Origin: Agarophyton chilense
Taxonomy: Eukaryota > Rhodophyta > Florideophyceae > Gracilariales > Gracilariaceae
Length of the DNA: 64,000 bases
NCBI GenBank assembly: GCA_030374765.1
Contig: JARGXX010000123.1
Coordinates: 1-64,000 of the forward strand
Direction of reading: 5' to 3'
The notes below the pieces were generated by a model. That model was not told where the DNA came from, did no database searches, and saw only the letters and a list, made by a program, of their open reading frames with translations. The position numbers and the translations under genes are program-made. Position 1 is the first letter of the stretch. Each line of letters begins with the position of its first letter. Shown here piece after piece: positions 1,825 through 58,315 of the stretch.

Positions 1825-3683
1825 TTGTTAGGGCAATAGTTAGTAGAGTAGTAGTGAAAGTAAGTAGCAGTGCTGCGCAGTCAGGTGAGAATATTGTGGA
1901 GAGATGGCTGTGATGGCATCGTCTATGTGAGTTTATATGCATCGTCGGGGGCTATGACGTTATCCTAATTCGTCTCTAGCGCCATACACGCCTTCAGAGG
2001 CCGGGTTGGGATGCATTCCTTATTTGGAACAGAAGAAGGTATTTAGGGTTGACGTTGCTGGCAAACGTCAAGTCACTCTGGATCAGTGGATTAGTTTGAG
2101 TGTGTACCTTTAATCAGAACAGTTGGTTTTGTGGGACGAATGGTTGCATAATGGAGAAGCAGGCCCCTTTGGCTTGTGCAAATGAGGACGCAGTTGCGTG
2201 CTGTGCAAAGCTATTTGGACTACGCTGGGCTAAAACTGCGATTTCGAAGTGCGCGGAGCAGTTCCGGTATGCTTTTCGCCATGGTGCGAAACGTCTTGCT
2301 ACATTAGTTAGTTAGATGCTCTCCATGAGCTAGATTGTCTCGTTGGTTCTTTTGTAACCCTCCCTTTCTTGTAAACATTACCTGGAGGGATGCTGGCGTT
2401 TAGGCTGTATGTACTATTCCTCACAAGTGACTCCCGAAAAAGCTGCAATCACTTTTGTAGTTCTGTATTTCTGTAGCAAGAAAAATGATTGTTGTGGTTA
2501 TCAAGAAATGTTCTCCTGACTGTAGGCTGTGAGAATGGATGTCCCACCCTGAGCGTACATCTTACAGCAACACGTTTCTGTTTCTGGCAATGAGTTGACG
2601 GCAGCTTGTAGACAAGCGTGTGTTGGGGACAGCTATTGTTCTAGGTGTTTCAAACGAAAAAAAGTTGGATACAGGATCTGATATGGTATGAGTCAGATAA
2701 GTTATCCTCCTCACACACAGAGAAGATTTAATGTAATAGAGTACAGGCCGTGTAAGAAGGAAGGAAGGACGTGGTGCAAATGCGGCCACCTGCGCGGGTT
2801 GTTCAGGGAAGGTGATTTTAGAGTTTGGGAATCTTCTGGGTCGTCGCTTGCCGTCCGAGATGGAGGCCAAGGCGAGCCAGGATTTTTATTAGTACTCTAG
2901 CTTCTAGCCTAACTCGGTAGTCGTTCGGGCCAGTTGCAAAGCTGTCAGCTAGCCCACTATTCGTAAACCGTCGTCAAGAGCTTAACGAATACTAGACAGG
3001 GCTGTTTCGGGCGTCTTCGAACGTTCAAGGCACTCTTCGCAATGCTGTACATTTGTCGAGCCCGCACAAGGGCAAAGGCATTTGCGTGTTGCAACACACG
3101 CCATTTTGCATTGCAACAGTAGAGACTTGTTTCAATCTTCTTCAACGAACGCTTTTTAAGCGCGAGTCATACAGCTCGTTCTCAACGTGCGAGAACGGAC
3201 GGACCTGGACAATATTTGAGTGGCACTATTTCGGTGTTTTCCTGAGCTGGATTGAAAAGTGCATGTGCAAGTATTGTCATTTGTGTATTGCTGTATATCG
3301 CGCTTGAAGTTACTACTAAAATTACAGCGATCGGAATGCTCCACGCAGTGAATAAAGCAAGCCGGCATTTACTTTTGACTCTCTTCTGCTTGTTCTTCTT
3401 ACTTTTAGGCACTTTCAAGACATGAACGACGCTGGGAACAAACAGAGGGCGCTTAATGCTTCGGTTTAGGTAGCTGTGGTATTCATACAATATGGTTTGT
3501 CACCACATGTGCAGTCACCAACACGTCATGCCTTCCTTGAAGTTTTTCCAATCACTATTTTGAGGTATCTATATGCGATTGCTATACGGCGTGCAGCTAG
3601 TTGTTATGTGGGTGGACTTTATTTACAGAGTTAGGTGGGAGTTAGTTTGATTCCACATCATCTACCAAAGCTAGCTATACAAA
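1825..3683. other. Spacer between tandem copies 1 and 2 (no gene seen)
   Basis: This 1.86 kb spacer separates the start of the left copy from the stop of the complete copy. Only short, unconserved open frames occur and no RNA gene was recognised. It should hold the promoter and 5' UTR of the left copy (high-coordinate side of 1824) and the 3' UTR of the complete copy (low side of 3684). A TATAAA-like hexamer on the minus strand lies at about 1932-1937. Confidence 0.7.
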
Positions 3684-6611
3684 TCAGTAAATATACATTT
3701 TGGAGGAATTATTACGTCTCCACCAGTTGCGCCTCCACCACCTACGCCTCTGCCACCACTTTGGTCTCCAGCGCTTTGGTGTCGGGGCGTGAGAAGTTGA
3801 CGGGCTTGGAGATGGAGAGCTTGAGGCATGGGCCACAAGCGGCAACATCGAGGAAGACAGAGGTGGAGATGCACTTTGAGAAGCCGGGGGCTGCGGGCTC
3901 GGCGAAGCAGACAAAGACGGCGTTGTTGATACGGAAATGCTGGGTGAGGCACTGTATGACGGAGATGGTTCTGGGGATGAACTGGGAGAGGAAAGCGGGC
4001 TTTTTGCAGCCGAGTCACCCTGTACAACTGCGTGTGTATCGGAATCAATGCTGTAAAAGAACTCTTCATCGTCGTAGATCACTGTCACCGAAGTTCCGTT
4101 TGGGTCCTGATCCATCGAGAATCGTTCCGGCTCTCCGATATGTGGGTGGAACGCGATCCAGAAGAGCTCCTCTTGCCCGTTGTCGCTTCGGATGATAAGC
4201 CTTTCATGCCGCTTGTCGCTCGTGAACTCTTCCGTGCGGTATGATATTGAGTGTCCTGTCGATATCACGTGAATGTCGACCTGGGCAATTCCTTCATCGC
4301 TCAGAACAATGCGGCACGTGTTACCCTCGCAGCTCGATGAATCCGCGTCTACTTGCACCAGATCACCCAACATCAGATACGATTCAAACTTGTGATTCGA
4401 AGCGCCCCCGGACACCCGGGTGGAGTCAACAACCATGAAGAATCCAGGTCCTGCAACTCCTCGGTTCAACACCACGGAGCGCACCATCCAGTCCAAGGAA
4501 ACTTCGCGATAGTTGCTCTTCCAGACCCACATGCCTCTGAATCCGACATCGGGGTCCCCGTGCATGTTGAATTGATCTCGAGTGAATCCCAGATCTGCTC
4601 CGTCGTCGTCGGCGGGCCATCCAAAATCGTGCGGGTGTCCATACTCCACCATATCGAAGCGCTTTCCGACTAGCCTCGATGAGCCGTCCTCTTCGGTGAC
4701 GGTTACAGCCGTCATTGGGGCTTTGTCAAACGGCCAGTTTCTTGCCCACTGCACGTTGTATGCGTAAGTCAAGTTGGCCGTCGCAACGACCTCTCGCCCA
4801 TTGTCTTCGACTGCAACCATGGCTACGGAGGGCGCCTTCGCATCTTGAGCGAGCCCGTCGATGTGCATGAGCGAGTGCTTTCTGGAATCGATGTTCTTGT
4901 TCCACACGTGATCGTCAATCCATGCCGTTTTGAAAGCGGTAAGCGTGAATATACCTCGGTCCGCGTTGTCGTGCCCTGGGAATATCGCATCGGGACGCGC
5001 ATCAAAGTGCACGTATATGGCGTTCTCGGCTTCACTGCCTCTGGCGATCAGCAGTCCCCGACGGGGGCTGAAGTATGAGAGCGGGAAGTGTTGCAAAAAC
5101 TCCTTCTCCAATCCTTGTGGGGACTCAGCGTACGTCGATGTTCCGTGCTCCAAGCCAAGAACAGTGACGTGTAAGAGAACCTGCCCCCATTGAATGCGAC
5201 AAGGGCTGTTGTTTTTGAAGTGCTTCCCCATCCTTTGCTTCCACACCATTTGCGGGAGTGCGCCGTCAGGATACGCGTACTTGAACAGGGCGGCCCACGC
5301 GGGATACGACATGCCGCCGCCCGACGAGTGACCAACAATGCGGGCGCACTGCCACGGCTCCATCATTTGGGCCACGTTGTGGATGAGGCCGCGAAAGCGA
5401 TCGGTGTCCATGACGCGAAGCCCTCGGCGTTCAGCGGCCACTAGCGCCAGCGATCCTTCGCGAAGCGCGATGAAGTACGTGTAGGCGTCCTCGAACGTCG
5501 CCCCATCGGGATACACAGCGTGGGTCATGTATGCTTCGATGAGGGCGGTAAAGCGGTGGTTGAGTCCGCTGTTGAAGCCTGTGTCGCCACTCGACGACAT
5601 CACGGAGCTCGCATATGCGTCGAAGTTGGTCTCGCCCTCAAGGACCAGGTTTGTAATGTAGAGGTGGCCATGATACAAGGCCCAGTTGCTGAAGATGCGG
5701 TGAGGGTGCTGGGCGGCGTTGGGAGATTTTCGGGAGCTTTGGAGAGCAGTTCCCCACGACGTCTGTTTGTACATGAGCAGCGCTAGGGCGCTGAGCACAA
5801 TTCGTTGTTCGTCGCTGGAGAACCGATCGTACAAAACATCGAGGGTGAGTGCCAATGAGGACCCGGCGGAAAACCAGTCATTGGACACTTCGAACCACCG
5901 ATCTTCGTCCCACAGAAAAGCTCGTTGGGCTCCGTCTCCATTTGGGCACTTCCCGGCGCAGTTGACAGCGCGATGGGCGAGGAGCACTTTTGCCCATGCA
6001 ACAGACGCCTTCACGCAGTCGTCAACTGTGGTGGTCATGAATGACTCTCTTTCACCCCGTTCCTGAACAACGTTCTCGTTCACGCTGGCCCACACCGCGC
6101 AAATGAAGAAGCTCTGATGATAACCCTCGGACATGTTCATGATATGGTTTGCAAGCGGGTGCAATGCATCGAGCTCTTGCTGCGAAGAAGAGGAAAGATC
6201 CTCATCTCCTGTGTAGAGTGTAGTTTCGCCGTTGCGTTCCATGTGAGCCAGTGTGTTTATAACGGGATTCGAGTCGGCGAGGTGGCGAGATGCTCGACGG
6301 TTGAAAAACGACCAGGAAGTGGGCAGGTCGAATGTACCGGCGTTGGAATAACGCTCCAAAAGCTGGAGCCATCCGTGGTCGTCAAAAAGAATGCGAGGGT
6401 GAATACCCGGTTTGAAAGCAGCTGCCGGTGCAGGAGTGACAGCAGCTTTACCAAACAAAGAAGAATGAGGCGCAGACTTCATGAAGGTGGCGACCCTATT
6501 CGGATTTTGTATAAAAGTGTCTGATTCTTCCAGAGATACATGAGCGGAAAGAACGATAACGAGAAGAGCGGAAAGAGAGGCAGTGACAGTGAATAAGCGG
6601 AGGGGAGACAT
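3684..6611 (-). CDS. Secreted heparinase II/III-like polysaccharide-active enzyme (complete copy, 975 aa)
   Basis: The 975-residue frame starts at the ATG at 6609-6611 and stops at TGA 3684-3686, without introns. Residues 1-27 form a typical signal peptide. Residues 71-75 read HPRIL, the entry motif of heparinase II/III and alginate-lyase-like alpha/alpha toroid enzymes. The later stretch NWALYHGHLYIT (309-320) and a histidine/aspartate-rich region at 546-556 (GHDNADRGIF) fit that superfamily, whose catalytic domain is followed by a beta sandwich. Residues 870-945 are a Ser/Pro-rich linker. Residues 946-967 are almost only Trp, Arg, Lys and Asn. I infer export to the cell wall and action on an anionic polysaccharide. 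In a red alga this could be lyase-like or a galactose-sulfurylase type reaction on carrageenan, but the sequence does not settle the chemistry. Fold assignment is from motifs recognised by eye. Confidence 0.75.
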   Translation of the reverse strand: MSPLRLFTVTASLSALLVIVLSAHVSLEESDTFIQNPNRVATFMKSAPHSSLFGKAAVTPAPAAAFKPGIHPRILFDDHGWLQLLERYSNAGTFDLPTSWSFFNRRASRHLADSNPVINTLAHMERNGETTLYTGDEDLSSSSQQELDALHPLANHIMNMSEGYHQSFFICAVWASVNENVVQERGERESFMTTTVDDCVKASVAWAKVLLAHRAVNCAGKCPNGDGAQRAFLWDEDRWFEVSNDWFSAGSSLALTLDVLYDRFSSDEQRIVLSALALLMYKQTSWGTALQSSRKSPNAAQHPHRIFSNWALYHGHLYITNLVLEGETNFDAYASSVMSSSGDTGFNSGLNHRFTALIEAYMTHAVYPDGATFEDAYTYFIALREGSLALVAAERRGLRVMDTDRFRGLIHNVAQMMEPWQCARIVGHSSGGGMSYPAWAALFKYAYPDGALPQMVWKQRMGKHFKNNSPCRIQWGQVLLHVTVLGLEHGTSTYAESPQGLEKEFLQHFPLSYFSPRRGLLIARGSEAENAIYVHFDARPDAIFPGHDNADRGIFTLTAFKTAWIDDHVWNKNIDSRKHSLMHIDGLAQDAKAPSVAMVAVEDNGREVVATANLTYAYNVQWARNWPFDKAPMTAVTVTEEDGSSRLVGKRFDMVEYGHPHDFGWPADDDGADLGFTRDQFNMHGDPDVGFRGMWVWKSNYREVSLDWMVRSVVLNRGVAGPGFFMVVDSTRVSGGASNHKFESYLMLGDLVQVDADSSSCEGNTCRIVLSDEGIAQVDIHVISTGHSISYRTEEFTSDKRHERLIIRSDNGQEELFWIAFHPHIGEPERFSMDQDPNGTSVTVIYDDEEFFYSIDSDTHAVVQGDSAAKSPLSSPSSSPEPSPSYSASPSISVSTTPSLSASPSPQPPASQSASPPLSSSMLPLVAHASSSPSPSPSTSHAPTPKRWRPKWWQRRRWWRRNWWRRNNSSKMYIY

Positions 6612-8470
6612 TTGTTAGGGCAATAGTTAGTAGAGTAGTAGTGAAAGTAAGTAGCAGTGCTGCGCAGTCAGGTGAGAATATTGTGGAGAGATGGCTGTGA
6701 TGGCATCGTCTATGTGAGTTTATATGCATCGTCGGGGGCTATGACGTTATCCTAATTCGTCTCTAGCGCCATACACGCCTTCAGAGGCCGGGTTGGGATG
6801 CATTCCTTATTTGGAACAGAAGAAGGTATTTAGGGTTGACGTTGCTGGCAAACGTCAAGTCACTCTGGATCAGTGGATTAGTTTGAGTGTGTACCTTTAA
6901 TCAGAACAGTTGGTTTTGTGGGACGAATGGTTGCATAATGGAGAAGCAGGCCCCTTTGGCTTGTGCAAATGAGGACGCAGTTGCGTGCTGTGCAAAGCTA
7001 TTTGGACTACGCTGGGCTAAAACTGCGATTTCGAAGTGCGCGGAGCAGGTCCGGTATGCTTTTCGCCATGGTGCGAAACGTCTTGCTACATTAGTTAGTT
7101 AGATGCTCTCCATGAGCTAGATTGTCTCGTTGGTTCTTTTGTAACCCTCCCTTTCTTGTAAACATTACCTGGAGGGATGCTGGCGTTTAGGCTGTATGTA
7201 CTATTCCTCACAAGTGACTCCCGAAAAAGCTGCAATCACTTTTGTAGTTCTGTATTTCTGTAGCAAGAAAAATGATTGTTGTGGTTATCAAGAAATGTTC
7301 TCCTGACTGTAGGCTGTGAGAATGGATGTCCCACCCTGAGCGTACATCTTACAGCAACACGTTTCTGTTTCTGGCAATGAGTTGACGGCAGCTTGTAGAC
7401 AAGCGTGTGTTGGGGACAGCTATTGTTCTAGGTGTTTCAAACGAAAAAAAGTTGGATACAGGATCTGATATGGTATGAGTCAGATAAGTTATCCTCCTCA
7501 CACACAGAGAAGATTTAATGTAATAGAGTACAGGCCGTGTAAGAAGGAAGGAAGGACGTGGTGCAAATGCGGCCACCTGCGCGGGTTGTTCAGGGAAGGT
7601 GATTTTAGAGTTTGGGAATCTTCTGGGTCGTCGCTTGCCGTCCGAGATGGAGGCCAAGGCGAGCCAGGATTTTTATTAGTACTCTAGCTTCTAGCCTAAC
7701 TCGGTAGTCGTTCGGGCCAGTTGCAAAGCTGTCAGCTAGCCCACTATTCGTAAACCGTCGTCAAGAGCTTAACGAATACTAGACAGGGCTGTTTCGGGCG
7801 TCTTCGAACGTTCAAGGCACTCTTCGCAATGCTGTACATTTGTCGAGCCCGCACAAGGGCAAAGGCATTTGCGTGTTGCAACACACGCCATTTTGCATTG
7901 CAACAGTAGAGACTTGTTTCAATCTTCTTCAACGAACGCTTTTTAAGCGCGAGTCATACAGCTCGTTCTCAACGTGCGAGAACGGACGGACCTGGACAAT
8001 ATTTGAGTGGCACTATTTCGGTGTTTTCCTGAGCTGGATTGAAAAGTGCATGTGCAAGTATTGTCATTTGTGTATTGCTGTATATCGCGCTTGAAGTTAC
8101 TACTAAAATTACAGCGATCGGAATGCTCCACGCAGTGAATAAAGCAAGCCGGCATTTACTTTTGACTCTCTTCTGCTTGTTCTTCTTACTTTTAGGCACT
8201 TTCAAGACATGAACGACGCTGGGAACAAACAGAGGGCGCTTAATGCTTCGGTTTAGGTAGCTGTGGTATTCATACAATATGGTTTGTCACCACATGTGCA
8301 GTCACCAACACGTCATGCCTTCCTTGAAGTTTTTCCAATCACTATTTTGAGGTATCTATATGCGATTGCTATACGGCGTGCAGCTAGTTGTTATGTGGGT
8401 GGACTTTATTTACAGAGTTAGGTGGGAGTTAGTTTGATTCCACATCATCTACCAAAGCTAGCTATACAAA
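6612..8470. other. Spacer between tandem copies 2 and 3 (no gene seen)
   Basis: This is a duplicate of 1825-3683 and differs at 7049 (G instead of T). No coding region or RNA gene is supported. The part next to 6611 is the probable promoter and leader of the complete enzyme gene. Confidence 0.7.
6719..6724 (-). promoter_or_regulatory. Putative TATA box of the complete enzyme gene
   Basis: The plus strand reads tttata, giving TATAAA on the gene strand about 108 nt upstream of the ATG, at a distance compatible with an ~80-nt leader. The same hexamer sits at 1932-1937 for the left copy. Only position and motif support it. Confidence 0.35.
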
Positions 8471-9431
8471 TCAGTAAATATACATTTTGGAGGAATTATT
8501 ACGTCTCCACCAGTTGCGCCTCCACCACCTACGCCTCTGCCACCACTTTGGTCTCCAGCGCTTTGGTGTCGGGGCGTGAGAAGTTGACGGGCTTGGAGAT
8601 GGAGAGCTTGAGGCATGGGCCACAAGCGGCAACATCGAGGAAGACAGAGGTGGAGATGCACTTTGAGAAGCCGGGGGCTGCGGGCTCGGCGAAGCAGACA
8701 AAGACGGCGTTGTTGATACGGAAATGCTGGGTGAGGCACTGTATGACGGAGATGGTTCTGGGGATGAACTGGGAGAGGAAAGCGGGCTTTTTGCAGCCGA
8801 GTCACCCTGTACAACTGCGTGTGTATCGGAATCAATGCTGTAAAAGAACTCTTCATCGTCGTAGATCACTGTCACCGAAGTTCCGTTTGGGTCCTGATCC
8901 ATCGAGAATCGTTCCGGCTCTCCGATATGTGGGTGGAACGCGATCCAGAAGAGCTCCTCTTGCCCGTTGTCGCTTCGGATGATAAGCCTTTCATGCCGCT
9001 TGTCGCTCGTGAACTCTTCCGTGCGGTATGATATTGAGTGTCCTGTCGATATCACGTGAATGTCGACCTGGGCAATTCCTTCATCGCTCAGAACAATGCG
9101 GCACGTGTTACCCTCGCAGCTCGATGAATCCGCGTCTACTTGCACCAGATCACCCAACATCAGATACGATTCAAACTTGTGATTCGAAGCGCCCCCGGAC
9201 ACCCGGGTGGAGTCAACAACCATGAAGAATCCAGGTCCTGCAACTCCTCGGTTCAACACCACGGAGCGCACCATCCAGTCCAAGGAAACTTCGCGATAGT
9301 TGCTCTTCCAGACCCACATGCCTCTGAATCCGACATCGGGGTCCCCGTGCATGTTGAATTGATCTCGAGTGAATCCCAGATCTGCTCCGTCGTCGTCGGC
9401 GGGCCATCCAAAATCGTGCGGGTGTCCATAC
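8471..9431 (-). pseudogene. Third copy of the heparinase-like gene, 5' part lost (C-terminal ~320 codons)
   Basis: The frame reads from residue 656 or so to the normal stop and is identical to the complete copy, including the Ser/Pro linker and Trp/Arg tail. At 9431/9432 the identity ends mid-codon and the sequence becomes a reverse-transcriptase fragment on the opposite strand. Start codon, signal peptide and catalytic domain are gone, so this copy cannot make a secreted enzyme. There is no LTR end or target duplication at the junction, so this is not a simple element insertion. A deletion, an unequal exchange, or a mis-join in the assembly would all fit. Confidence 0.85.
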
Positions 9432-11604: not shown

Positions 11605-11609
11605 CTGAC
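11605..11609. repeat. Target site duplication of element B (left copy; right copy 21628-21632)
   Basis: ctgac stands immediately before the 5' LTR and again immediately after the 3' LTR. A perfect 5-bp duplication next to TG...CA ends is the signature of LTR element integration. Confidence 0.9.
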
Positions 11610-12472
11610 TGAAGAGCAACGTCCTCCAGGGAGGTTTTTGGGGACTTAAGTTTTTTCCGGAGCCTCCGGCGTGCAACCTCGATATGAGAAGGAGTAATCC
11701 GTTTTCACGGCGTTGCCGGAACGCCGGTGATGCACCCGCTGGACCGGGTGCCGTACACGTTGCCGCAGCGCCCGGGCGACACGTGGCCGCCAGATTGGCT
11801 CCTTTGTTAGACGGACATTTAGCTATTTAGGATAGACTTTATTTATTCTATTCTACGGTGACTACAGTACTTAGGCCGCCGGCCTCGCGGCCGCCGGTCC
11901 AGTAAAGTCTCCCCAACAAGGGTGATCTTGGTCTTCCAGATCTTGGCTCTGGGTCGAACCGCCTGCGCGGATATACAACTCCTTACGGAGGGATTTCGCG
12001 TGGTGCACGGCTTCCCAACCCCCTTGGACGTTCAAGCATCCTTCGTGTGTTGGGTATCTATTCTCACTTTCGTGGTTCCGCCCGTGTATACGGCTTGCTA
12101 CACCCGGCAGTGCCGGCTATTCCCGAGTCCCCTCTTGCAACTCGTGTTCAACCTCGCCCTCTTGCCTCTGTTCCCATTTTCCTTCCCTTTTCCTCCCCTT
12201 CATTGGGCAATTCCCGCTCTTGCGGTCCGCACTGACACCTGTCGTGCTCGCCACTCTTGTGGGTTTTGCCTCCTCAGAGGATACGCAAGCACCGCTTCGG
12301 CGGATATTCTCGGCTTCTTTCAGCCTCCCTGCGCCCGTCGCGACGGTTGGGCTCCAGCTTACACCCGGCATTGCGCGCCGATCCCTGGGAGGGCTCTACC
12401 GCGCCGGTTACCTCGTGAGAGGAAGATCCGGACATCTTCGTAGGTTTTCCCCTTTGGGGGCATTGTCCTACA
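11610..12472 (+). repeat. 5' LTR of element B (863 bp)
   Basis: The LTR begins tgaagagcaac and ends gtcctaca. It contains a run of perfect inverted repeats, for example CGGCGTT/AACGCCG at 11708-11726 and CACCCG/CGGGTG at 11733-11750. The stretch tacagtacttag at 11863-11874 is shared with a diverged LTR at 36770-37018. The U3/R/U5 limits cannot be set by eye. Confidence 0.95.
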
Positions 12473-12475
12473 AAT

Positions 12476-12493
12476 TGGTCTCCCGACTTAGAA
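12476..12493 (+). promoter_or_regulatory. Primer binding site of element B (tRNA-Tyr type)
   Basis: TGGTCTCCCGACTTAGAA begins three bases after the LTR end. Its complement ends CGGGAGACCA, giving a tRNA 3' end with G72 and A73. A G72 implies C1, the hallmark of eukaryotic tRNA-Tyr, and yeast tRNA-Tyr, as I recall it, also ends CGGGAGACCA. The same site occurs in elements C, D and E. Confidence 0.75.
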
Positions 12494-12595
12494 GTCAAGA
12501 CCGCTTGGGTCCTCTCTGAGGTTGTTTTCCGTTTAACGGGTTTTCTCCGGTCTCACCGGTTTGCTTTCTATTCTTCCGTCGAGACGGTGTGGCCA

Positions 12596-14707
12596 ATGCC
12601 AAGGAAACCGCCTAGCATGGAGCCTCCTGCAACACGCAGCCGTTCCCGCCAGAGCGGTGATGCCAGGGGCACTGATGTTCCACAGGCCCTGGCTCCAACA
12701 CCGGCTTCCCGGGAGATACCGGTCACCGGCACTGAAGACCCGCAGCCCGATTCCGGGTTAACGACCGTCGCAACGGTGGTTTCTCCGCCTCCGCGGTTGG
12801 TCGACCAAGCGCGGGTTGTACGCTTGGAAGGGCAGCTCCGCTCCCTGCGGGCTGCTCACAATACCCTCTCGAGGGAATTCACCTCTTTACGAGGAAGCCT
12901 CGCTAACCCCCCTCCAAGTGAGTTAGCCGAGGATATCCGCGTATTGCGGTCGGAAGTCAATACACTACTCGAGTGTTTTGGCGCTCCGTCTTCCTTCGCA
13001 GAAGGTATGGAGAATCGCTTCGAGCGTCTACGAAGCCGACTTGAGTCGGTCGAGAGGACGTTAACCTCGCCCGCGAACGCGGCTAGACCGGTTTTCTCTC
13101 ATCGAGAGACCCAGTCGCGGAACCGGAAGAGCCGGAAGAACCGGGATTCTAACCGTAAGCACGGACACCCGTCCGACTCATCATCTGAGTCGGATGGTAA
13201 ACCGAGTGACTCGGAGAGTTCCGATTCGTCGGTGAGCGATGACTCACAGGATCGTTATGGGCGCTTTTCCCACTCAAAGCGGTTCTCTGCCACCTACGGG
13301 GCCATCCGGTCGCACCCCAACGGTCGGCGACATCCGGGCCTCAAACCCTTGAAGCCCACCAACCCTCTGTACAGGACACTCCTGTCCTACCGGTATTACC
13401 GGCTAGAAGATTCTTCTTTAGGTCGGACACCGCGTGACACGGATAAAGTGAAAGACTGCATCAAGCGGATGCAGCTTTCACTTCGTAACCAGTCGTTTAC
13501 TGGGGATGATCCAATTCTGGTCTTGGATTTCCTACACCGCTTTGTAGCGGAAGCCGATATACTCGGAATGAACGAAGGACAAGCCTACGTGGCGCTACCC
13601 TACTTTCTACGGGGTGTCGCTGAAGATCAGTTTTTGTCGGTTCGGGGCTCGTCGCGAGCCTCCGAAAAAGGTGTGACCTGCTGGCCCGAGGCCGGGCAGT
13701 ACCTCCTGCGTTCCTACGCAACCAACTCCGCAATACAAGCGGCGATATTCGCTTTGCGAGACACTCGACAACGCTCCGGCGAGCTCGAGACCGATTACCC
13801 GGTACGCCTGAATAAGGCTTTCCACCGTTGTGGTAATGTATACCCCGCCGGGGAACGCTGTACGATGTTCATTGATGGCTTGGATCCAGCCATCAAAACT
13901 CTTGTCGCCCGTTGCAGGGAACAAGAGCCGAAGGTGACCTACCTTGAACTCGTACAGTTTGCCCGCGCAGAGGGAGATGAACTACGTGCACGCAATCCGG
14001 GAATCCGGTCGAAGGCCGCTAAAGCATTGCTGCTTGAGTCGGACTCTTCTTCACCGTCATTTGCGACGGATGGCATCCCCAAACAGGGTTATGACAATAT
14101 GAATGTCATCCATCACGATGGTTTATCTATTCCGACAACGGAATTACCGTCTACGACGGATGGCTCGGTTGACTCAACCGCAAGGGACACGGAGAACGGG
14201 CAGGTCTTTTATCTTAATGACCGCCGCACTCCGGCCCCCCGTATGCCGTACTCGAACGGAATGACACGAAGTCAACGCCCTGGATGGGTTGGAAACCGGG
14301 AACCCGGAAGATACACCGATGCTCGGAATGCCGTACCGCGAAACGCGGGAGTGACGTTGGTGTGCCACTTGTGCTACGAGCGCGGGCACACCTCCCCGCA
14401 ATGCCTTTTATCGCTACGTGTTATGGCGCGAGTGGTGGATAATTACGAAGCCCTCTCCCCGCAGGAGAAGGGCTTCGTGCTACTCACGCCATATCTCCGC
14501 GCGAACACGGACTTCCCCAACGCATTGGCTCACACTCCGAATTCTCGGTATAAACCGGCTCAGCCGGCACGCGCCGCACCAGCGCCAAACCACGCTGGTG
14601 GATCTCAACCCGCTCCTGCGGTAGCTACCGTGCAACGGAATCATGCACTCGTTGCCGAGGAAGTCGGGCCTTCGCCCGACCAGGACCCTGTACAGGGAAA
14701 AGAATAG
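12596..14707 (+). CDS. gag: Gag polyprotein of element B (703 aa)
   Basis: The first ATG of the frame is at 12596; an open GTG-led extension upstream is unlikely to be used in a eukaryote. The protein has a Ser/Asp/Arg-rich N-terminal third and a capsid-like helical region at about residues 270-480, shared in pattern with the gags of C, D and E. It has a zinc knuckle C-x2-C-x4-H-x4-C (CHLCYERGHTSPQC) at residues 590-603. It should assemble the virus-like particle and bind the element RNA. The frame is fully intact, in contrast to every other gag in the window. It stops at TAG 14705-14707, four bases after a slippery heptamer. The coding sequence is unusually rich in hairpins (see findings). 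Confidence 0.88.
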   Translation: MPRKPPSMEPPATRSRSRQSGDARGTDVPQALAPTPASREIPVTGTEDPQPDSGLTTVATVVSPPPRLVDQARVVRLEGQLRSLRAAHNTLSREFTSLRGSLANPPPSELAEDIRVLRSEVNTLLECFGAPSSFAEGMENRFERLRSRLESVERTLTSPANAARPVFSHRETQSRNRKSRKNRDSNRKHGHPSDSSSESDGKPSDSESSDSSVSDDSQDRYGRFSHSKRFSATYGAIRSHPNGRRHPGLKPLKPTNPLYRTLLSYRYYRLEDSSLGRTPRDTDKVKDCIKRMQLSLRNQSFTGDDPILVLDFLHRFVAEADILGMNEGQAYVALPYFLRGVAEDQFLSVRGSSRASEKGVTCWPEAGQYLLRSYATNSAIQAAIFALRDTRQRSGELETDYPVRLNKAFHRCGNVYPAGERCTMFIDGLDPAIKTLVARCREQEPKVTYLELVQFARAEGDELRARNPGIRSKAAKALLLESDSSSPSFATDGIPKQGYDNMNVIHHDGLSIPTTELPSTTDGSVDSTARDTENGQVFYLNDRRTPAPRMPYSNGMTRSQRPGWVGNREPGRYTDARNAVPRNAGVTLVCHLCYERGHTSPQCLLSLRVMARVVDNYEALSPQEKGFVLLTPYLRANTDFPNALAHTPNSRYKPAQPARAAPAPNHAGGSQPAPAVATVQRNHALVAEEVGPSPDQDPVQGKE

Positions 14708-14729
14708 AGGGAGTCTCCCCTTCGGGAGA
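14695..14729 (+). promoter_or_regulatory. -1 ribosomal frameshift signal at the gag/pol overlap
   Basis: GGGAAAA (14695-14701) is phased as G GGA AAA in the gag frame, the canonical X XXY YYZ arrangement, one codon before the gag stop. Pol lies in the -1 frame, which is open from 14554, so the frames overlap by about 154 nt. Downstream, TCTCCC and GGGAGA form a perfect 6-bp stem with a 4-nt loop (14714-14729), 12 nt from the heptamer. Confidence 0.7.
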
Positions 14730-17193
14730 GGCGTCCTCAGAGTTGAGGCTGACGACGCCCGAGGCGTCCCCGCCTCGCTCCCCAGTCAAAATCCTCTCAA
14801 GGAAACAGGCCGTCTCAGACGTGGACTCTGAACACTTTGGTGTTTTACGTCGACCGTGGAAACGGGTACATCACAACTGGTTCCTGGAAAGAGTCATGGT
14901 CATGGCGAAGCGAAACTTTAAAGTTTACGCTGACCTAGGCCTTACTACCGAGTTCATGGTGCGTTTTGTCACTGTGTTGGGTACAGGTACAGAACCGAAC
15001 TTCGTCGTGGAATCTATCCTACCACCTGCTTTGCAGTCTCAAATCCGCCGTGGCGTAGCATTAGACGCCGCTGACGCTGGTAACAACCCGTTAGAAACGG
15101 TTGGAGTGATCGATTTGGTGGTACGCTTAGGACCCTGCGTCGTGAAGCTGCACTTTATTGTCTGTCGGTCACTCCCCGCCCTTCTCATCTTGGGTTGTGA
15201 TTTTTGCGACCGTTTCGTCGAAGCGATTGTACCCCGCTTAAAGCGTGTGGAATTGGACGATGGATCCTCTGTTCTCATCGTCCGCCGTCCGCCGAAGCGT
15301 GCCTCGAAGAAGCATGTTCCTCTTCCTGCTGCACAGGAGTTCCCCGCCGCTTTTCGTGAGTCTACAAAGCTTCGTGTCGACGAGTCGATTTGCATTCCGC
15401 CAAAGTCCCACTCTTGGGTGCGTGTCAGTTCTCGTCAGCACGGTACACGAATCGTTCGACCGATTCCATCACTGTCGAACAGGCATCAACTCGCTTTCGC
15501 GGATGGAATAGTTCACATTGAGCCCGACAAGTCGTTTGGTGTATGTGTTTGCAACGTTGGAGAGAAACACCAGTATCTGGTTAGGAACCAAGTCATTGGA
15601 AGAGTTGCTCCTCACCCCATGTCTATCTTTACCCTTCAAGGGGATCGTACCGGTTCAACCGGAATGGTTCACTCTGAGGAGGGAGATAATCTCGTCGGAG
15701 GTCCCCAGTCTACGCTGAACTTATCCACACTGCCGTGTGTGTCGCCACCAGCAGTACTGGTTAAGTTATCCAATGGTTCTTGGATTGTTGTCATCGACTA
15801 CCGTCGGTTCTGCACGACTGACGTCGGAAAGATACCACCTGAGTTGGTGAATTTCAAAACCCAGCCATTGCTGGATGGGCTACCGAATTGTTCGGATCAT
15901 GAGAGTTGCTGGAACTCGTGGCTTTCAGTAATGCCTTCCGCTGTTCAGCGTTCGATGGCCTGCATACGCCCAAGGCGCAGAGGAGGGCCATTTAACAGAA
16001 CTCTGGATGCTTCAGCCCCTCGCAACGAGGATGGTTCTCAGAATCTCTCGCATATTGCGGAAGTTCCCGTTTCTACGGTAGGGCTAATCTATCCCATCCA
16101 GATCGTTGCTTTACCCGCCAATAAGCGATTCCCGCTCTACAACCCATCCTTGGGACTCTCTGATATACCGATTCAATCGGACGCTGGCCTGAATGGCCTT
16201 TCTTCTCTCACGCCACTGCGCGGTGTCTATCCCCGCCAGTTGGGCGTTTCTACCACTCTCTATGCCGCTCCGTCTAAGGAAGGGGAAGAGGATGTTGACT
16301 CTCGTCGAGAGACTGTTACCGCCTCGTCGCGTCATGATAACGGTGGTACACGGAGCTCTGGACGCATCGAAATGGATATTGGTGGACGGAAAGCTTCGTC
16401 CACGGACGTGCCCTGCACTCATCTGCACCGTGCCACTGATGCCGAGTTTTCTCGAGGAAGTTCTACCGCATCTGTGCACGATGGCACTCTCCCCGGGGAT
16501 TCTGGTTTGCAGAAAGCGCCACACAATGGAAAGTCTCGCGCCGAAGCGAAGTCGTTGCTGAAAGTTAGTCGCGCTCACGAAACATCACCGGCACCGCCGT
16601 TGGAAGACATTCATGGTTCTTTGCATTTGCATTCCGTGAATCACGGTTCTCTTTCGACAGCATTGCTGGGTACTGAAAGGAATGCCCTCGCGGGCTCCCT
16701 TAAGCCGATCTCGTCCGACGGCTCAACTCGTATAGTACGGAAGGACATACCGGTTATACCGGGCAAGCACACCGTACCTCGCGAGGAAACCCAACCCAGG
16801 ACACTGGAATCTGATGTCGATCAACCGCAAATGTGCGAGAGAAACCCGAATGTCTCGGTTGTTACCAAAACTGTCGTCGTGGACGCACGGGTCAGTCCGG
16901 ATGCTTTACACGTCGAAGATGATGGAGGGGAGCCGGACATTCCGGGTTATGATGGAAATACGCTAGTCATAACATCCACTCTCTGGATCTTTTGGCCTTT
17001 TGGGAAAGGTCTACCGCTTTTGTGTCGGATGGTGCCCACCAATGGGATTCAACATCTGTTGTCTTGCCACAAAGTGGAAAATCTCTCGCCAAAGGGATCT
17101 TGTCGAAGGATTATTTTCGCGCTTGCGACACTGAACCGGCTGTGCCGTCGAGCGTTGATCCGCAGCCCGTGGGTCACGGTTCGTCGACACTAG
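14702..17193 (+). CDS. Pol-frame protein of element B: decayed protease and RT remnant
   Basis: The -1 frame is open for more than 800 codons. It begins with a retropepsin-like domain (FKVYADLGL onward, and ILGCDFCDRFVE near its end). The catalytic triplet, DTG in the related elements, reads GTG here (codon 14980-14982), so the protease should be inactive. About 250 residues later a short stretch (LVKLSNGSWIVVIDYRRF) matches the start of RT in element D. No palm box, RNase H or integrase follows; the rest is Ser/Thr-rich with no domain I know. That this frame stays open is odd for dead sequence and suggests either recency or a retained role. An unrelated product cannot be excluded. Confidence 0.7.
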
Positions 17194-18413
17194 CTACGCT
17201 GGACACTACAGAGCAGGCCCTCTCGGGATCCTCTGAGCCGACTACACCGGAAGTGTGGACACCAACTGCACGGCAGGACACACCGGCTAGGCCGGGCAAG
17301 CACACCGTACAGGACGGGAGAAACACACACAGCACGCTTGACACTGGTTCAGGACGCTCGCGCAGTCGCAGATACACTCCGATTGTCTCGGTTGACCCAG
17401 ACAGTATTGTCGAAGTCGCACCGGTCACTCCGGAGAACGGACACGTCAATGACGGAAGCACCTCGTCGCCGAGTGAAGTTAGACCCTCGAGAGGGATAGT
17501 TTGTGACGACCTTGCTTCCCAGAGGGACAATTCGCTGGAAACGTCACAGCACGTTCGTGATGGAGACACGGTTGAGCCGGAGATGCACGCCCGACGTGGT
17601 ACTTTGTCGCCGAAGCTAGCTGACACACCGGCAACGCCGTTGCACACGCCCTCACGTGAGGAGGCGGAACACAGCACGGCGCGGAGCGCTCCCAGCCATC
17701 AGCTGGTCACGTCACGTGACCAAGTGGCACCCGACAGGGGAGATGCACCAATAGGCGCTCGAGGCGATTCAACCGTCAAGAGACGACGCCCCGTGGCAAA
17801 ACGGCCTCCTGCGTCAAGTTCATCACCGTCGCGACGGATTTCACTAAGGAAACTCGCGGAGCGCGATCAAGAAACCCAGCTTTGGGATGAGTCCGCGTTC
17901 CCCCGAAGGGTGGTTTCTGCACGAGAAGTCTCGGTAAGATCCCCGACCCGAATACTGGGATAATTGCCCTATGGGAAGGCCTTCGGCCGAAGCCGTCGAA
18001 ATGACGATTCTCGTCACGACGACATGGCGGAAGTACCACGCCAAGCGGTCAAATCCTCCCAGAAACCGGTTCGTATCCGTACCCAGGTCAGGGAAAGGCC
18101 GTACCAAGCAGTGGACCCCTGCGGGGATGGACACAGTAGCCCACACGCGATGGCGGAAAGCTGCCAGTATGGCAATGTGACACAGGCACGGAAAGGCCGG
18201 AAATTCTACGACCAGTTCGTTATCGACTACGTCGTGGAGCATTCTTACCATCGGGATGGTTACATACAGTATCGCGTCCGTTGGCACGGGTTGGGTCCCG
18301 AATGGGATTCCATTGAGCCAATGCAGCACCTCCCACGTTCTAAAGTGGTTTCATATCACCGCAGGACGCGAACGGGAATCCCGGCATCGGTGATGAAAGC
18401 CCAAGTGGGATAG
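16992..18413 (+). CDS. Chromodomain-bearing frame of element B (one internal TAA)
   Basis: This frame overlaps the end of the pol frame by about 200 nt in the next -1 phase. It runs through a disordered Ser/Thr/Pro/Arg-rich region to a TAA at 17961-17963, then continues open to 18413. The second part ends in a chromodomain at about 18211-18355: FVIDYVVEHSYHRDGY, YRVRWHGL, then the WEP-like DSIEPMQHL and a Tyr-His-Arg end. In chromoviruses this domain sits at the integrase C-terminus and steers integration toward marked chromatin. Here it survives without the integrase core. The TAA may be read through or may be inactivating. No good start codon was identified for either part. Confidence 0.7.
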
Positions 18414-19788
18414 TAGCACACCTTGGTAGAGAGAAGGAGAACTATGGTTGTTTGGTCGGAAATGGAGAAGAAGGAGTATGGTTGGCTTTATTATTCATGC
18501 TGTTCATACGGGAGTGGCTCTCACTTGGTGTGAGGTCACAACAATGCTCGCTCTTAGCGGTCGGGTCCCGAATGTTGTCGTGTCTGATCGCCCCTTTCGT
18601 TTTCGGTTGTTTACACTTGATGGGTTTTTCATCTAGCTTGCTGGTTCACGAATGCTTCTGTGATCTGTAATCACGGTTTTTCCCCAATCGTTATGGTGTA
18701 CAACAACCGATGGCATCGTTTCTTGATCAGCTTTGTTGCCGCTGGTCGCCCACTAGTCGTGGTGGTGAAGCCCCATACTTGGGATGTGGACTTGGTCCAT
18801 CACCGCTGCGCGGGTGCTACTGTACACTACAGGTCACCTGGAGACCTTCCTCGTTTGTTTATTAATCGTTCAGAACGATTCGGCTCCCCGTTTGCTTACG
18901 GTTGCTTTCTCCGGAATCGGATGTTTCATCTCTACAGTAATACCTGGATTCCAGTTGCGGAAACCCCGTTACTCCAGTAATACTACTCTGATTCGAATTA
19001 GACTTAAACACAGACTATTCTGGAGATATACAAGCGCCTTGGCGAAAACAGAACCCAATTATCTTGGAAAACGTCAGAGATATGACATCTTTTCAGTTTA
19101 CCGCTCTATTCTTATCCTGAACTGAAACAGGTCGCCACTTCCCACTTAATGGTGTTCAATCTTCCCATTCGTGGGTGCAATTGAAAGTTCTGCTTCTTGT
19201 GAGTACGACGACTAATCGACTTAGTGCCAGGACGTTTGCATCTGAAGTTATCCGCGTTTTGCGTTGTGGACCGCTTTGAACCCGGTAATCCTGGTTTGGA
19301 CTGGTGGAAAAACCGCCCGTCCGCGGGAAGCTGGAACTCGGTTCGAGACACGATCTCCCTTGGGAGTTAGTAGACAGCACGGGAAGGACACTGGAAGTCA
19401 AGACCCACGACATCGGGCACTAGCCATGTTGACGAAGCTCGTGCGGTTCTACCCTTGCGGGAGGGAGGTGGTCCGATGATTCGGTGGCCGCGTACTCTCT
19501 CAGGGAGGAATCGGAACGCCTCAGGGAGGAATGTGAAGGCTATGAAGCTGACAAAAACACCTCATGGAGGGATATACCACGCAAGCAGAGGTGCAACACA
19601 ACCGAACAATCGGGATGGCGGACTACAGTATCCACAAGAAAGAAACCGGACAAGGAATGGTCGTGAAACCTTGTGATTGCGCTTTACTCTTGCTGAGGAT
19701 CACAACCGCAACTCGCGGGGCGCACTGCGATCGCAGATAGAATTTCTCTCTCATGAGGATGAGCCGATGAAATCGGAGTGGATTCGCT
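18414..19788. other. Element B spacer between chromodomain and antisense frame
   Basis: About 1.4 kb without a recognised domain. A short plus-strand frame at 19484-19666 has a coiled-coil-like start (LREESERLREECEGYE). The region is rich in short inverted repeats like the rest of B. Confidence 0.5.
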
Positions 19789-20718
19789 CTAGGCGGAGGT
19801 GTCTACCGGTAACCGAAATGTGGACGTGCACAGCGGATGTATTCCCGACGCCGTCGACGTCCCTCGTCGAGGTTGTCGCTCCATCTGAGAAGGGGGATAT
19901 GTGGTGCACGCCCTCTGGGAGGGGTTCTGAAGGAAGTTCGAGCGCGACTGCCGCGGTTGGTAGCGGAACTCTGCCCAAAGAATCGGTCGTACCCAGCAAA
20001 GGGCTTCTTGCCGAGCGATCGGTGTGCCCCTCCAAGCGAGGGTTTCCAATCCGTTAAGACGGTCACAGTACGACATTTACCCGCGAGTGCGGTAAAGGTG
20101 GACGTCGAATTCGACCTCTGGCGGTATCGGGAACTCGAAAGGCGCCCGATGGTGCCTGAGATAAGCGATCCGCACAAGCGCGGCCTGAGCCTCCGCAGAG
20201 GATTCACCGCGTCGGCGGAGTATGTGGTGTACCGGGATGGCGATACGATTACGCCAATCCCAGGACATGGTCACCACGCCGGGCAGGTCGCCCGGGAGCA
20301 TCTCCGAATTATCGGTGTAGGAGTGGATCAAATCCTCGTCGCGGACAGCAAATGGGTGAAACCAAGGCGCATACCGCAACATCGCAGAGCCATGCCGAGT
20401 TCTCGGATTTGCACCCACAAGGGCGTCGTAGGTCGGCCACTGCGGTGGGTCCGCCTGTCCGCGAAAGCGGGCGCCAATACGGCGGTCTTCGTACGCGAGG
20501 TTGGTAACATCCCCAGGGTGGGGCGCGGACCGGAAGCCAGTGGAACCGCCAAGGGCGGGAGTCGCGGATGTGTTATGACGGTCGGGGTTGGACATGGTGC
20601 GTGTTGGTGTGCTGTGGTTGGAATCGGATGCGAAGAGCGTGCGTGGGATCCTGGGTGAAGGTGTGTTGGTTTCCGGAGACCCGGTGTCGGACGCGCTCTT
20701 ATCATGGCGAGCTGCCAT
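19789..20718 (-). CDS. Antisense ORF of element B, homologous to the antisense ORF of element D
   Basis: The frame starts at the ATG at 20716-20718, 47 bp inside the 3' LTR, and runs on the strand opposite to gag. It is open for 213 codons to TAA 20077-20079 and then for 95 more codons in the same frame. Both parts match the antisense frame of D: APWFHPFAVRDEDLIHSY here against APWFDLVALRDDALINRY there, ALVG-x-NP against DLVG-x-DP before it, and in the second part WRG-x6-R-x2-ALC-x2-RP-x-L-x-AEFR. No domain, signal peptide or membrane segment is recognised. The second part loses similarity after AEFRY, so the C-terminus may be decayed. Being so close to the 3' LTR it could be transcribed from an antisense LTR promoter. 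The function is unknown. Confidence 0.65.
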
Positions 20719-20752
20719 GCCGACTTCCTCTTCGAGGTGTTCGCCCTGTCTT

Positions 20753-20764
20753 AAGGGGGGGATA
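20753..20764 (+). promoter_or_regulatory. Polypurine tract of element B
   Basis: The purine run aaggggggga, just before the 3' LTR, is the expected primer for plus-strand synthesis. Confidence 0.8.
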
Positions 20765-21627
20765 TGAAGAGCAACGTCCTCCAGGGAGGTTTTTGGGGAC
20801 TTAAGTTTTTTCCGGAGCCTCCGGCGTGCAACCTCGTTATGAGTAAGAGTAATCCGTTTTCACGGCGTTGCCGGAACGCCGGTGATGCACCCGCTGGACC
20901 GGGTGCCGTACACGTTGCCGCAGCCCCCGCGCGACACGTGGCCGCCAGATTGGCTCCTTTGTTAGACGGACATTTAGCTATTTAGGATAGACTTTATTTA
21001 TTCTATTCTACGGTGACTACAGTACTTAGGCCGCCGGCCTCACGGCCGCCGGTCCAGTAAAGTCTCCCCAACAAGGGTGATCTTGGTCTTCCAGATCTTG
21101 GCTCTGGGTCGAACCGCCTGCGCGGATATACAACTCCTTACGGAGGGATTTCGCGTGGTGCACGGCTTCCCAACCCCCTTGGACGTTCAAGCATCCTTCG
21201 TGTGTTGGGTATCTATTCTCACTTTCGTGGTTCCGCCCGTGTATACGGCTTGCTACACCCGGCAGTGCCGGCTATTCCCGAGTCCCCTCTTGCAACTCGT
21301 GTTCAACCTCGCCCTCTTGCCTCTGTTCCCATTTTCCTTCCCTTTTCCTCCCCTTCATTGGGCAATTCCCGCTCTTGCGGCTCTCACTGACACCTGTCGT
21401 GCTCGCCACTCTCGTCGGTTTTGCCTCCTCAGAGGATACGCAAGCACCGCTTCGGCGGATATTCTCGGCTTCTTTCAGCCTCCCTGCGCCCGTCGCGACG
21501 GTTCGGCTCCGGCTTACACCCGGCATTGCGCGCCGATCCCTGGGAGGGCTCTACCGCGCCGGTTACCTCGTGAGAGGAAGATCCGGACATCTTCGTAGGT
21601 TTTCCCCTTTGGGGGCATTGTCCTACA
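20765..21627 (+). repeat. 3' LTR of element B (863 bp)
   Basis: Same length and ends as the 5' LTR, with about 13 substitutions by eye. The second ctgac duplication follows at 21628-21632. Confidence 0.95.
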
Positions 21628-21702
21628 CTGACTACAAGCGACGGCGCACTCTAGTTGTCTAAGAAACATAGCTACAGTTGTTACCCCGCTCAATACTTAG
21701 TT

Positions 21703-40853: not shown

Positions 40854-42583
40854 ATGGATGAATACGCATTGGTCACTGGAGAGGAAGAGTTTATGGATGA
40901 CCTGGTCACTATATGCTCCCTCATACACAGTAACTACAAAGCAAACAGCCCTCTTGGGTCTGCTACAAACCACTTGGTTCCATTTGTTACCGTACTGGAT
41001 ACAGGAGCGGGACCCAATCTGGTGAATGTCAGACTATCACCACCAGGGTTGTTTTACAGGATATAGCCCTGCACATTGCAGAACCCACTCGTGGATTCTA
41101 ACAATTGACCTCTTTCAGTCCGTGGTTACCTCACCATCATGGTCATGGTTCGACACCTGGAGGGAAGAGTCGACTTTATCCTAATTAACCAACTGGCAAC
41201 GGACTGCATTCTGGGGACATTTATTATCGATCGCCACAACCGGGGTGTATTTCCCAGATCCCAGACGGTTTTTTCCAACAATGGACGGTGCATTGCCATT
41301 ATTGGTAAGGGCCGTGGACCCCAGAAACAAAACACCAGACGGGAGATTTCAAACCAAAAAGCAGGTACAACATCCAATAAGGTCCAGTTAGCTCACATGG
41401 TATCCATTCCAACTTCCCACCAAATGGTAGTACAAGTCACATCCTTGCGACCAGGTATAGTATCTCTTCAGAAACATACCAAGTTTATGGACAAACACAC
41501 GACCTTGATGGAAAATGAAATTATCGAGAATATACAGAACAAACCATTCAAGGTATACCTCTGCAACTTCAGCAACCACATGGTAAAGCACCCCAAAAAT
41601 ACAGTTATCGGCTTGGCGCTGCCGGCGCCAGGTCACATCTTTACAATGAAACCATCATGGTCTCACGTGTACAAGAACGATAAGGAGAGGGGGACGAAGG
41701 AGAATGAAAACCAGAAGGTAAAGAAAAACGCCCAAACGGGAGGGAACACCGACACCAACATGTAGGTGAAGGATTGGAGAGAAGAAGTAAATATTGGCCT
41801 TAAAGATGAAAGAAACCGAAACACATACTCTATTTACCGGAGCCGCTTGAAATCATGCGTTCGGGACGGCTGGGTGCGATAGTAGCAAACCAGCATCGCA
41901 TAGACTTGGCGGTAGACGCGAAGCCTATTCATCAGCAACCGTACCGGCCAATCAAAAAGCCCGAGAAGTAGAAGTACAGGACGGGCAGAGAGTGCTACCT
42001 GAAGGTCTGATTGAATCCACAAATACGGAATGGGTAATCTCTGTGGTTCTTGTGCAAAAACGAGGAGAAACCCGAATGCGGTTCTGTATCGACTATCGGA
42101 AGTTGAAGGCCGGTACGGTAGTAGACTCGTATCCGATAGCAAGAATAGATGAATGAATCGATTCTCTAGGAGAAGCATATATATATACATCCCACTGATT
42201 GCCAACTGGGGTTATTGGAAAATACAGGTACCCGAGGAGGATAGAGATATGACCGCATTCAGCTGGCACGTGAGAATCTATTGAATCTGGAGATTGCCTT
42301 TTGGTGTACGTAATGCGCCAGCAACCTTCCAACGGGCGCTTGACATTATATTGACGAAAAGTTAGGCTAACAACCGCATTGGTGTATATAGACGACGTGG
42401 TGATCTACTACAGAACCATTGAGCAGCACCACGAATACGTTAGAACTTTACTAAACCTCTTGAGAAATGCAGGAGTAACTCTGTAGTGAAGGGAGTGTAT
42501 GTTCTTCGACCAGAAGGTAGAGTATCTGGGGCACACAAGCAGCCCAGGAAAACGTCAAGTAGCCAAACGAAACCTCAAAGCGG
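40854..42583 (+). pseudogene. Protease and RT remnants of element E
   Basis: Protease: VLDTGAGPNLVN with Asp codon at 40998-41000, then a stop, then CILGTFIIDRHNRGVF in the frame 41139-41765. RT is very decayed, with many stops, but DYRKLKA-like sequence near 42090 and YIDDVVIY near 42390 can be made out. The sequence stops being RT at 42583, where D begins. Confidence 0.65.
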
Positions 42584-46192: not shown

Positions 46193-46238
46193 AAGATTCC
46201 CTAAAACTGCTCCACTTCAACCCTCAATTGAATACGAG

Positions 46239-47495: not shown

Positions 47496-47507
47496 TCCTT
47501 CCTTGGA

Positions 47508-48161: not shown

Positions 48162-48284
48162 GGGGACTACTCCCAATTGGACCCTCTAATGGCATCCCAC
48201 GGAACTGAATCTCCTGATCAACTCGAGCGTATCTCGATCACTGAGCTCTGAAATGAGCAACTCACAGATAACTTCTGTACAGCG

Positions 48285-53268: not shown

Positions 53269-53391
53269 CGCTGAGCAAGTCGAAACAGATGGTACTTTCG
53301 TGGAGACAAGGAAATTTCGGAAGGCCGATGCATGCTACGGTATATAAAGACGTCTTGCGTCGCCGGTGCTTCGTGCTGAACGGGAGGGATG

Positions 53392-58246: not shown

Positions 58247-58315
58247 AAGAGCGGCGGGGCGCGTTTCGTCGAGAGACTCCAAACGTCAAAAAGCAAAGCA
58301 ACAAGCGGCAGCCGC

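Follow-up and report, generated by a model that had tools for sequence, protein, structure and literature searches.

Two LTR retrotransposons of the red alga Agarophyton chilense, here called B and D, carry related genes on the strand opposite gag-pol and just inside the 3′ LTR. Each gene starts at most about 125 bp from that LTR, which confirms the proposal of a sequence-only reading of this DNA that both elements encode related antisense proteins there. That the antisense frame is a coding gene is close to certain. On balance, we favor the explanation that chromodomain Ty3/Gypsy elements possess it as a true accessory gene, which encodes a protein and is read opposite gag-pol. Judged by their domains, B and D are chromodomain Ty3/Gypsy elements. 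Chromodomain Gypsy elements are not necessarily chromoviruses, according to the part of PMC12477816 available to us.

The window is the whole stretch of 64,000 nucleotides that was analyzed (contig JARGXX010000123.1). Three features go beyond the sequence-only reading. The copies in the window are defective, intact frames elsewhere are about 570–680 aa long, and the gene is present in copies without RT and integrase.

Elements B and D in the window

Element B has the following features.

11605–11609 (left) and 21628–21632 (right): target-site duplication CTGAC flanking element B
11610–12472, plus strand: 5′ LTR with TG...CA ends, 98.5% identical to the 3′ LTR
12419–14704, plus strand: gag open frame, 762 aa from stop to stop
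14554–17190, plus strand: frame after gag, about 107 aa of which match the pre-RT-domain part of D
18219–18410, plus strand: chromodomain match (tblastn with the D chromodomain, 43%, E 6e-15)
19933–20076, minus strand: antisense gene, piece 2, in a different frame from piece 1 (profile, 48 aa, E 1e-18)
20080–20718, minus strand: antisense gene, piece 1, from ATG 20718 (open frame 20080–20859)
20753–20764, plus strand: polypurine tract AAGGGGGGGATA
20765–21627, plus strand: 3′ LTR with TG...CA ends

The initial 54 bases of the gag frame lie inside the 5′ LTR, and B gag is 34% identical to D gag over 380 aa (tblastn). In both elements, TGGTCTCCCGACTTA lies directly 3′ of the 5′ LTR. The RT core, RNase H and integrase of D had no match in the B frame 14554–17190. 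ATG 20718, which was the boundary given in the earlier reading, is 46 bp short of the 3′ LTR. The antisense gene is broken by a frame shift near 20076. The shared motifs reported earlier were found on both sides of it: LVGANP and APWFHPFAVRDEDLIHSY in the minus-strand frame 20080–20859, and WRG...ALC..RP.L.AEFR in the next frame (19792–20076, minus) as WRGTPIARQEALCWVRPILWAEFR, where W replaces R before AEFR. Homology in this second open frame stops near 19933.

At 18411–19924, the bulk of the antisense gene is missing from the window copy. When the copies L019, L075, L002 and L003 were compared, window 18290–19924 was common to L002 and L003, both on contig C109, and had no match to L019. In a DNA search with 19789–20718 (best 40 of 266 candidates), two C109 copies aligned from base 3, a third from base 112 and most others from base 136. 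Bases 3–146 formed a separate piece in one C4 copy. That the antisense gene can be lost is evident from the window copy and from L002 and L003, its relatives on C109.

Element D has the following features.

42583–43201, plus strand: 5′ LTR, TG at 42584, 89.2% identical to the 3′ LTR
44420–45502, plus strand: gag fragment (Pfam Retrotrans_gag E 9e-5, slightly below cut-off)
46194–47492, plus strand: reverse transcriptase (Pfam RVT_1 E 1.5e-32)
47496–48158, plus strand: RNase H (Pfam RT_RNaseH E 6e-37)
48252–49466, plus strand: integrase in two frame pieces (piece 1: rve E 5e-14, Integrase_H2C2 E 6e-12)
50202–50411, plus strand: chromodomain (Pfam Chromo E 3.9e-9, over cut-off)
50696–50845, minus strand: antisense gene, C-terminal piece (profile E 9e-12)
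50849–51736, minus strand: antisense gene, core piece, WRG...AEFR... (profile E 1.4e-151)
51740–51880, minus strand: antisense gene, middle piece (profile E 9e-20)
52759–53268, minus strand: antisense gene, N-terminal piece, from ATG 53268 (profile E 2e-68)
53391–54007, plus strand: 3′ LTR

The D antisense gene starts about 122 bp from the 3′ LTR (ATG 53268) and is broken into four frame pieces. Its motifs were also as reported: LVGQDP and APWFDLVALRDDALINRY are in 52687–53334 and WRGFRDVRNAALCFRRPLLRAEFR is in 50849–51736, all on the minus strand. The second integrase piece had no match in Pfam. The chromodomain was found in both elements. It scored above the Pfam cut-off in D and below it in an intact-frame B copy, and was found by tblastn in the window copy of B.

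Other parts of the window were also inspected. Positions 1–9431 hold a 4644-bp direct repeat (1–4644 and 4788–9431, 99.98% identity), and this region includes a 976-aa minus-strand frame at 3684–6614. Element A and the 976-aa frame had no match in Pfam at E 0.01 and none to the antisense family profile. Element C matches a chromodomain near 31.2 kb (E 3e-5), and a related antisense frame was not found in it. An array of a 15-base, AAGTGAAGCGAAACC-like repeat unit occupies 58048–58252.

Intact copies and lineages in the genome

We searched the alga's own genome (79.8 Mb, 135 contigs) with the antisense proteins. With the B piece, the best 147 of 1605 candidates were scored. There was no stop within the match at 122 of these 147 places, and at 61 a stop-free frame extended over at least 600 aa. 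L019, a representative intact B frame, has 638 aa with its first Met at residue 48.

The D piece (best 150 of 1699 candidates) found itself and others at 50–81% identity. Among the lower-scoring places that were read, L069 and L071–L074 belong to a second family, named D′, and L070 belongs to D. Open frames were 564–590 aa in L069–L072 and L074 and 436 aa in L073, several of them cut at the edge of the piece. In the window, a profile built from five intact copies matched the pieces of B and D and nothing else, with E from 1.4e-151 to 9e-12.

Homologues from outside the genome were then used as queries. P0014 gave matches at 41–44% identity (best 77 of 1823 candidates), many with frames of 640–650 aa. 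Many matches of P0018 (best 83 of 1557) had the D′ frame of 611 aa, and others had frames of 598–746 aa. The examples read for two further lineages were L082 for E (640 aa) and L083 for F (633 aa in the piece). The antisense gene is carried by five lineages, B, D, D′, E and F, at 29–57% pairwise protein identity.

Selection on the antisense reading frame

The B–D alignment scored above all of 1000 shuffles. For the first pieces (P0001 against P0004), the Smith–Waterman score was 104, compared with 33.9 ± 5.3 and a maximum of 67 after shuffling. BLASTP gave E 3e-9 and 30% identity over 129 aa as a single comparison. L019 reached z 14 against P0004 and z 71 against P0006. When B and D were translated from the sense strand, their alignment was likewise above its shuffles (z 22 vs 71).

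The claim of coding selection was upheld most clearly between D and D′, and the signal was weak among young copies. L069 and L070 share 57% protein and 63.5% nucleotide identity. Their differences at the three antisense codon positions number 158, 137 and 324 over 565 codons (third-position excess, p 2e-22). The antisense frame has a pN/pS of 0.36 (bootstrap 0.32–0.40) and a dN/dS of about 0.13, with pS at 0.72 near saturation. The in-register sense frame has a pN/pS of 1.22 (1.05–1.45). L071 against L070 gave 0.36 and 1.24, respectively. The concentration of differences at third positions, together with 0.36 in the antisense and 1.22 in the sense frame, indicates coding selection on the antisense strand.

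B and either D or D′ are 31–33% identical in protein and 43–44% in nucleotides. Here pN/pS was 0.65–0.68 in the antisense frame, where pS is saturated, and 1.03–1.22 in the in-register sense frame. Across 21 aligned antisense proteins, 17 columns are invariant.

Among 11 intact B copies, antisense pN/pS was 0.66 overall, and the other frames had 0.83–1.13. By region, it was 0.48 in the core, 0.79 in the N-terminal part, 0.82 in the C-terminal part, 1.36 in the linker and 1.03 in the short N-terminal extension. In six B copies, the antisense frame (0.61; core 0.59) was conserved about like gag (0.57, two copies), RT-RH (0.62, four copies) and integrase (0.57, two copies), in a comparison of non-independent pairs. 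The linker plus chromodomain had 0.80 and the chromodomain end 0.85. Young pairs within D′ had antisense values of 0.63–0.83, and in one of these pairs two other frames were lower.

There is almost no chance that the gene is a shadow open frame left by plus-strand coding. A plus-strand frame is open for 281 aa in the window (19813–20658), and several intact B copies have one of 411 aa. The earlier statement that the plus strand is not coding needs this correction as to the open frame and otherwise holds. The in-register sense frame has 4–19 stops across the gene in seven intact copies and a pN/pS of 1.03–1.24 between lineages. Its translation is 16–35% identical between lineages, whereas the antisense translation is 31–57% identical. 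The second sense frame has 26–52% identity and a pN/pS of 0.49–0.79 (0.49 for D vs D′), which is expected because its third positions oppose the antisense third positions, and it has 21–31 stops in the intact copies. Over all frames other than the antisense one, 4–31 stops were counted in seven of seven intact copies. With 4–19 stops in register and a pN/pS of 1.22–1.24 against 0.36, the plus strand is read as non-coding. A plus-strand shadow ORF was refuted by the stops and pN/pS of the sense frames.

The antisense transcript itself could be the functional product, limiting the element through dsRNA or transcription interference, with the protein of minor importance. Noncoding antisense transcripts of LTR elements are described in other systems, in the accessible part of PMC7264820. 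This explanation is quite unlikely given selection at the amino-acid level, as seen in the D–D′ pN/pS, in the protein identity that B keeps with D and D′ at 43–44% nucleotide identity, and in the 17 invariant columns.

Start codon and protein properties

Within the 3′ LTR, the B antisense frame reads RLRKKLKSP (window 20795–20820). Seven of the 23 outside proteins that were read begin with MRLR and one has an internal MRLR; SP follows in seven of these eight. The G-run of the polypurine tract (window 20753–20770 and homologous sites in L001–L037) varies in length between copies, which shifts the antisense reading frame on the way from the LTR to the ATG. Of 38 loci, 31 fitted the pattern used, two places being counted twice. 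The run has 7 G in 23 of them, 8 G in six and 6 G in one, and is interrupted in one. An LTR-encoded N-terminus was rejected, since the window copy has no ATG there and the frame varies with the G-run. In L006 and L007, both with 8 G, the downstream gene is open, and ATG 20718 was therefore taken as the start. The Met of this ATG is absent in two of the 11 intact B copies used for the within-B rates. Simple nuclear-localization patterns occur only in the LTR-encoded extension of B.

The antisense protein is probably soluble, as judged from its hydropathy and charge, and its net charge ranges from +2 to −33. The Kyte–Doolittle threshold for a membrane segment is 1.6. In 16 members, the best 19-residue window means were 1.08–1.51 for 14 members and 1.62 and 1.67 for the other two. 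These two marginal values and the location between pol and the 3′ LTR are what an envelope-like or cell-exit protein has in its favor. It is a very improbable explanation in view of the antisense rather than sense orientation, the 14 members below the threshold and the charged residues in the segment.

Attachment to the retrotransposon

An LTR match adjoins the start of the gene in all 68 best-scoring loci with flanking sequence (66 distinct places), some of these matches being partial. The pieces L069–L074 are too short to reach an LTR. At the other end, the antisense gene of B and D is convergent, tail-to-tail, with the chromodomain end of pol. In one B copy, about 330 bp lie between the two stop codons.

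This pairing was examined at the best 150 of 2077 places found with the D chromodomain, against the antisense places listed from the searches with the D piece and P0018. At least 72 of the 150 had an antisense copy within 3.5 kb. All of these copies were downstream and on the opposite strand, with no other arrangement among the matches listed. Controls with shifted positions gave 0–3 pairs.

The other lineages were viewed in part. The D′ copy L081 has a chromodomain opposite the antisense gene. Lineage F, viewed at the chromodomain side only, has a chromodomain 62.5% identical to that of B on the opposite strand, past the stop of the gene. For lineage E, viewed at the LTR side only, the sequence adjoining the gene start recurs 9.5 kb upstream on the same strand, like an LTR pair.

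Recent acquisition of a host gene or of a nested transposon by these elements would account for a protein unexplained by any known family. We consider recent capture unlikely: the five lineages have diverged to 29–57% protein identity, the orientation to the chromodomain is constant, and LTRs lie beside the 66 flanked B and D copies. The antisense gene may still be an ancient capture. In L024, two B LTRs lie about 1 kb apart in opposite orientation, which suggests that the antisense gene of this copy contains an insertion that is nested or rearranged.

Copies without reverse transcriptase and integrase

Six B copies, L075–L080, were chosen for their intact antisense frame, and their upstream sequence was compared with D by tblastn. 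L076 and L077 match the RT, RNase H, integrase and chromodomain of D. In L077 a single frame of 1384 aa or more holds all of these, with the chromodomain after a linker of roughly 385 residues past the integrase match. L079 and L080 match RT, RNase H and chromodomain, and integrase was unmatched. L075, L078 and the window copy match only gag, the pre-RT-domain part and the chromodomain. Over the region corresponding to window 14554–17963, the B family has integrase-bearing, integrase-deleted and RT-RNaseH-integrase-replaced forms, and the chromodomain is present in six of six copies examined. D and the B copies L076 and L077 have the order RT, RNase H, integrase, with the chromodomain after integrase.

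For the RT-IN-replaced class, its junction region was used as the query, and 19 full-length places were among the best 40 of 255 candidates. For integrase-bearing copies, the best 40 of 579 candidates from an integrase-region search were scored. Places were paired with antisense genes by distance, and the strands of intact pairs were checked by eye. Two of the 19 RT-IN-replaced and nine of the 40 integrase-bearing places were left unpaired. The two include C115:1417406, whose nearest partner was common to another copy and on the wrong strand for it. Among the matches listed, the antisense gene was open for at least 600 aa with no stop in 7/17 RT-IN-replaced and 13/31 integrase-bearing copies, fractions that are biased upward but alike, since the B-piece search lists better antisense matches. 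In this comparison of the matches listed, loss of RT and integrase is not accompanied by more frequent breakage of the gene. Its retention in RT-IN-replaced copies may reflect recent origin.

Core pN/pS was 0.45 for an RT-IN-replaced pair (18 synonymous, 26 nonsynonymous; Fisher p 0.01), 0.49 for an integrase-deleted pair and 1.07 for an integrase-bearing pair (9 synonymous, 31 nonsynonymous). The argument for a benefit in cis is weak, and these pairs are suggestive only.

Copies that have lost RT, RNase H and integrase but contain an intact antisense gene together with gag and the chromodomain are also what we would expect of a particle component or a partner of Gag or nucleic acid, kept with gag for particles. 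We regard such a protein as possible but doubtful. Antisense expression would uncouple its amount from Gag dosage, and a capsid or zinc-knuckle family was not detected in Pfam-A.

Homologues and known antisense genes

Three protein searches (8, 16 and 11 matches; about 8000 candidates scored in each) gave 30 distinct outside homologues. With lineages D′, E and F in the alga's own genome, these add to the two proteins first noticed. The named homologues are BWQ96_03215 and BWQ96_10156 of Gracilariopsis chorda and FGB62_50g12 of Gracilaria domingensis, whose hosts we take to be Gracilariaceae red algae. Another outside protein, P0034, resembles adaptor-derived residues at both ends, and its record is presumably artefactual there.

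None of the 30 outside homologues has a precomputed Pfam domain. With 21 members as queries, Pfam-A (E 1) and PHROGs (E 0.1) gave matches of single members only, with best E of 0.027 and 0.064, respectively. PDB sequence searches gave nothing credible (best E 0.62 and 1.3), viral contigs searched with P0012 contained no homologue, and Rfam had no match in the window at gathering thresholds. Among the titles and abstract openings listed by our searches of open-licence papers, none reports an antisense gene of a red-algal retrotransposon. Neither "antisense" nor "red alga" occurs in the main text of PMC6317226, a plant survey.

The sequence-only reading had already mentioned antisense ORFs of some plant LTR elements and knew of none of this family. 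The available parts of PMC7264820 and PMC11963269 agree, as they describe plant antisense ORFs of unknown function at the same position and name a fungal case and no algal one. The aORF-3R cases given in the available text of PMC7264820 are maize Grande gene23, rice RIRE2, Phaseolus PvRetro13 and fungal Boty. As described there, they resemble the red-algal gene in lying on the opposite strand, between pol and the 3′ LTR, and in encoding a conserved protein of unknown function. B and D have both the orientation opposite gag-pol and the position between pol and 3′ LTR of an aORF-3R. The red-algal family differs in that its named homologues are red algal and in that intact genes occur in derivatives that have lost RT, RNase H and integrase. 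No Pfam-A family common to it and to the proteins of Grande, RIRE2, PvRetro13 and Boty was found.

The Retand antisense ORF has the same place and orientation as the red-algal gene. According to the accessible part of PMC11963269, it carries a TRP28 domain (PF04195), is near-universal in its lineage and has a proposed regulatory role, and Retand is a non-chromovirus lineage of flowering plants. In contrast, PF04195 was matched by none of 21 red-algal members (Pfam-A, E up to 1), and the red-algal elements carry chromodomains. Both papers also name the antisense genes of HTLV-type retroviruses. These genes lie near the 3′ LTR as well. No Pfam-A domain was found in the red-algal protein. The arrangement is the same as that of plant and fungal antisense ORFs, but the protein, as far as these family searches reach, is unrelated to those tested.

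Role of the antisense protein

For the accessory gene that we favor, a role as an accessory, regulatory or targeting factor is about an even call, and follows proposals made for plant antisense accessory ORFs. The gene would be transcribed from the 3′ LTR side. Its protein would act outside the enzymatic steps, in the expression, the particle or the targeting of the element itself, since derivatives that borrow RT and integrase keep the gene together with gag and the chromodomain.

More tentatively, and with clearly less confidence, we suggest an ancient group of red-algal chromodomain elements with a convergent, two-direction layout. In this group, an antisense protein of a new family would be essential and would act as a cis-favoring partner of the chromodomain in transcription or targeting. 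If this is true, the antisense protein would be indispensable even to derivatives with borrowed RT and integrase.

The hypothetical red-algal proteins BWQ96_03215, BWQ96_10156 and FGB62_50g12 gain a family and are, by homology, probably retrotransposon proteins. In a compact genome of 80 Mb, intact copies, integrase-bearing elements and deletion derivatives stand side by side, and thus what antisense genes do becomes directly testable.
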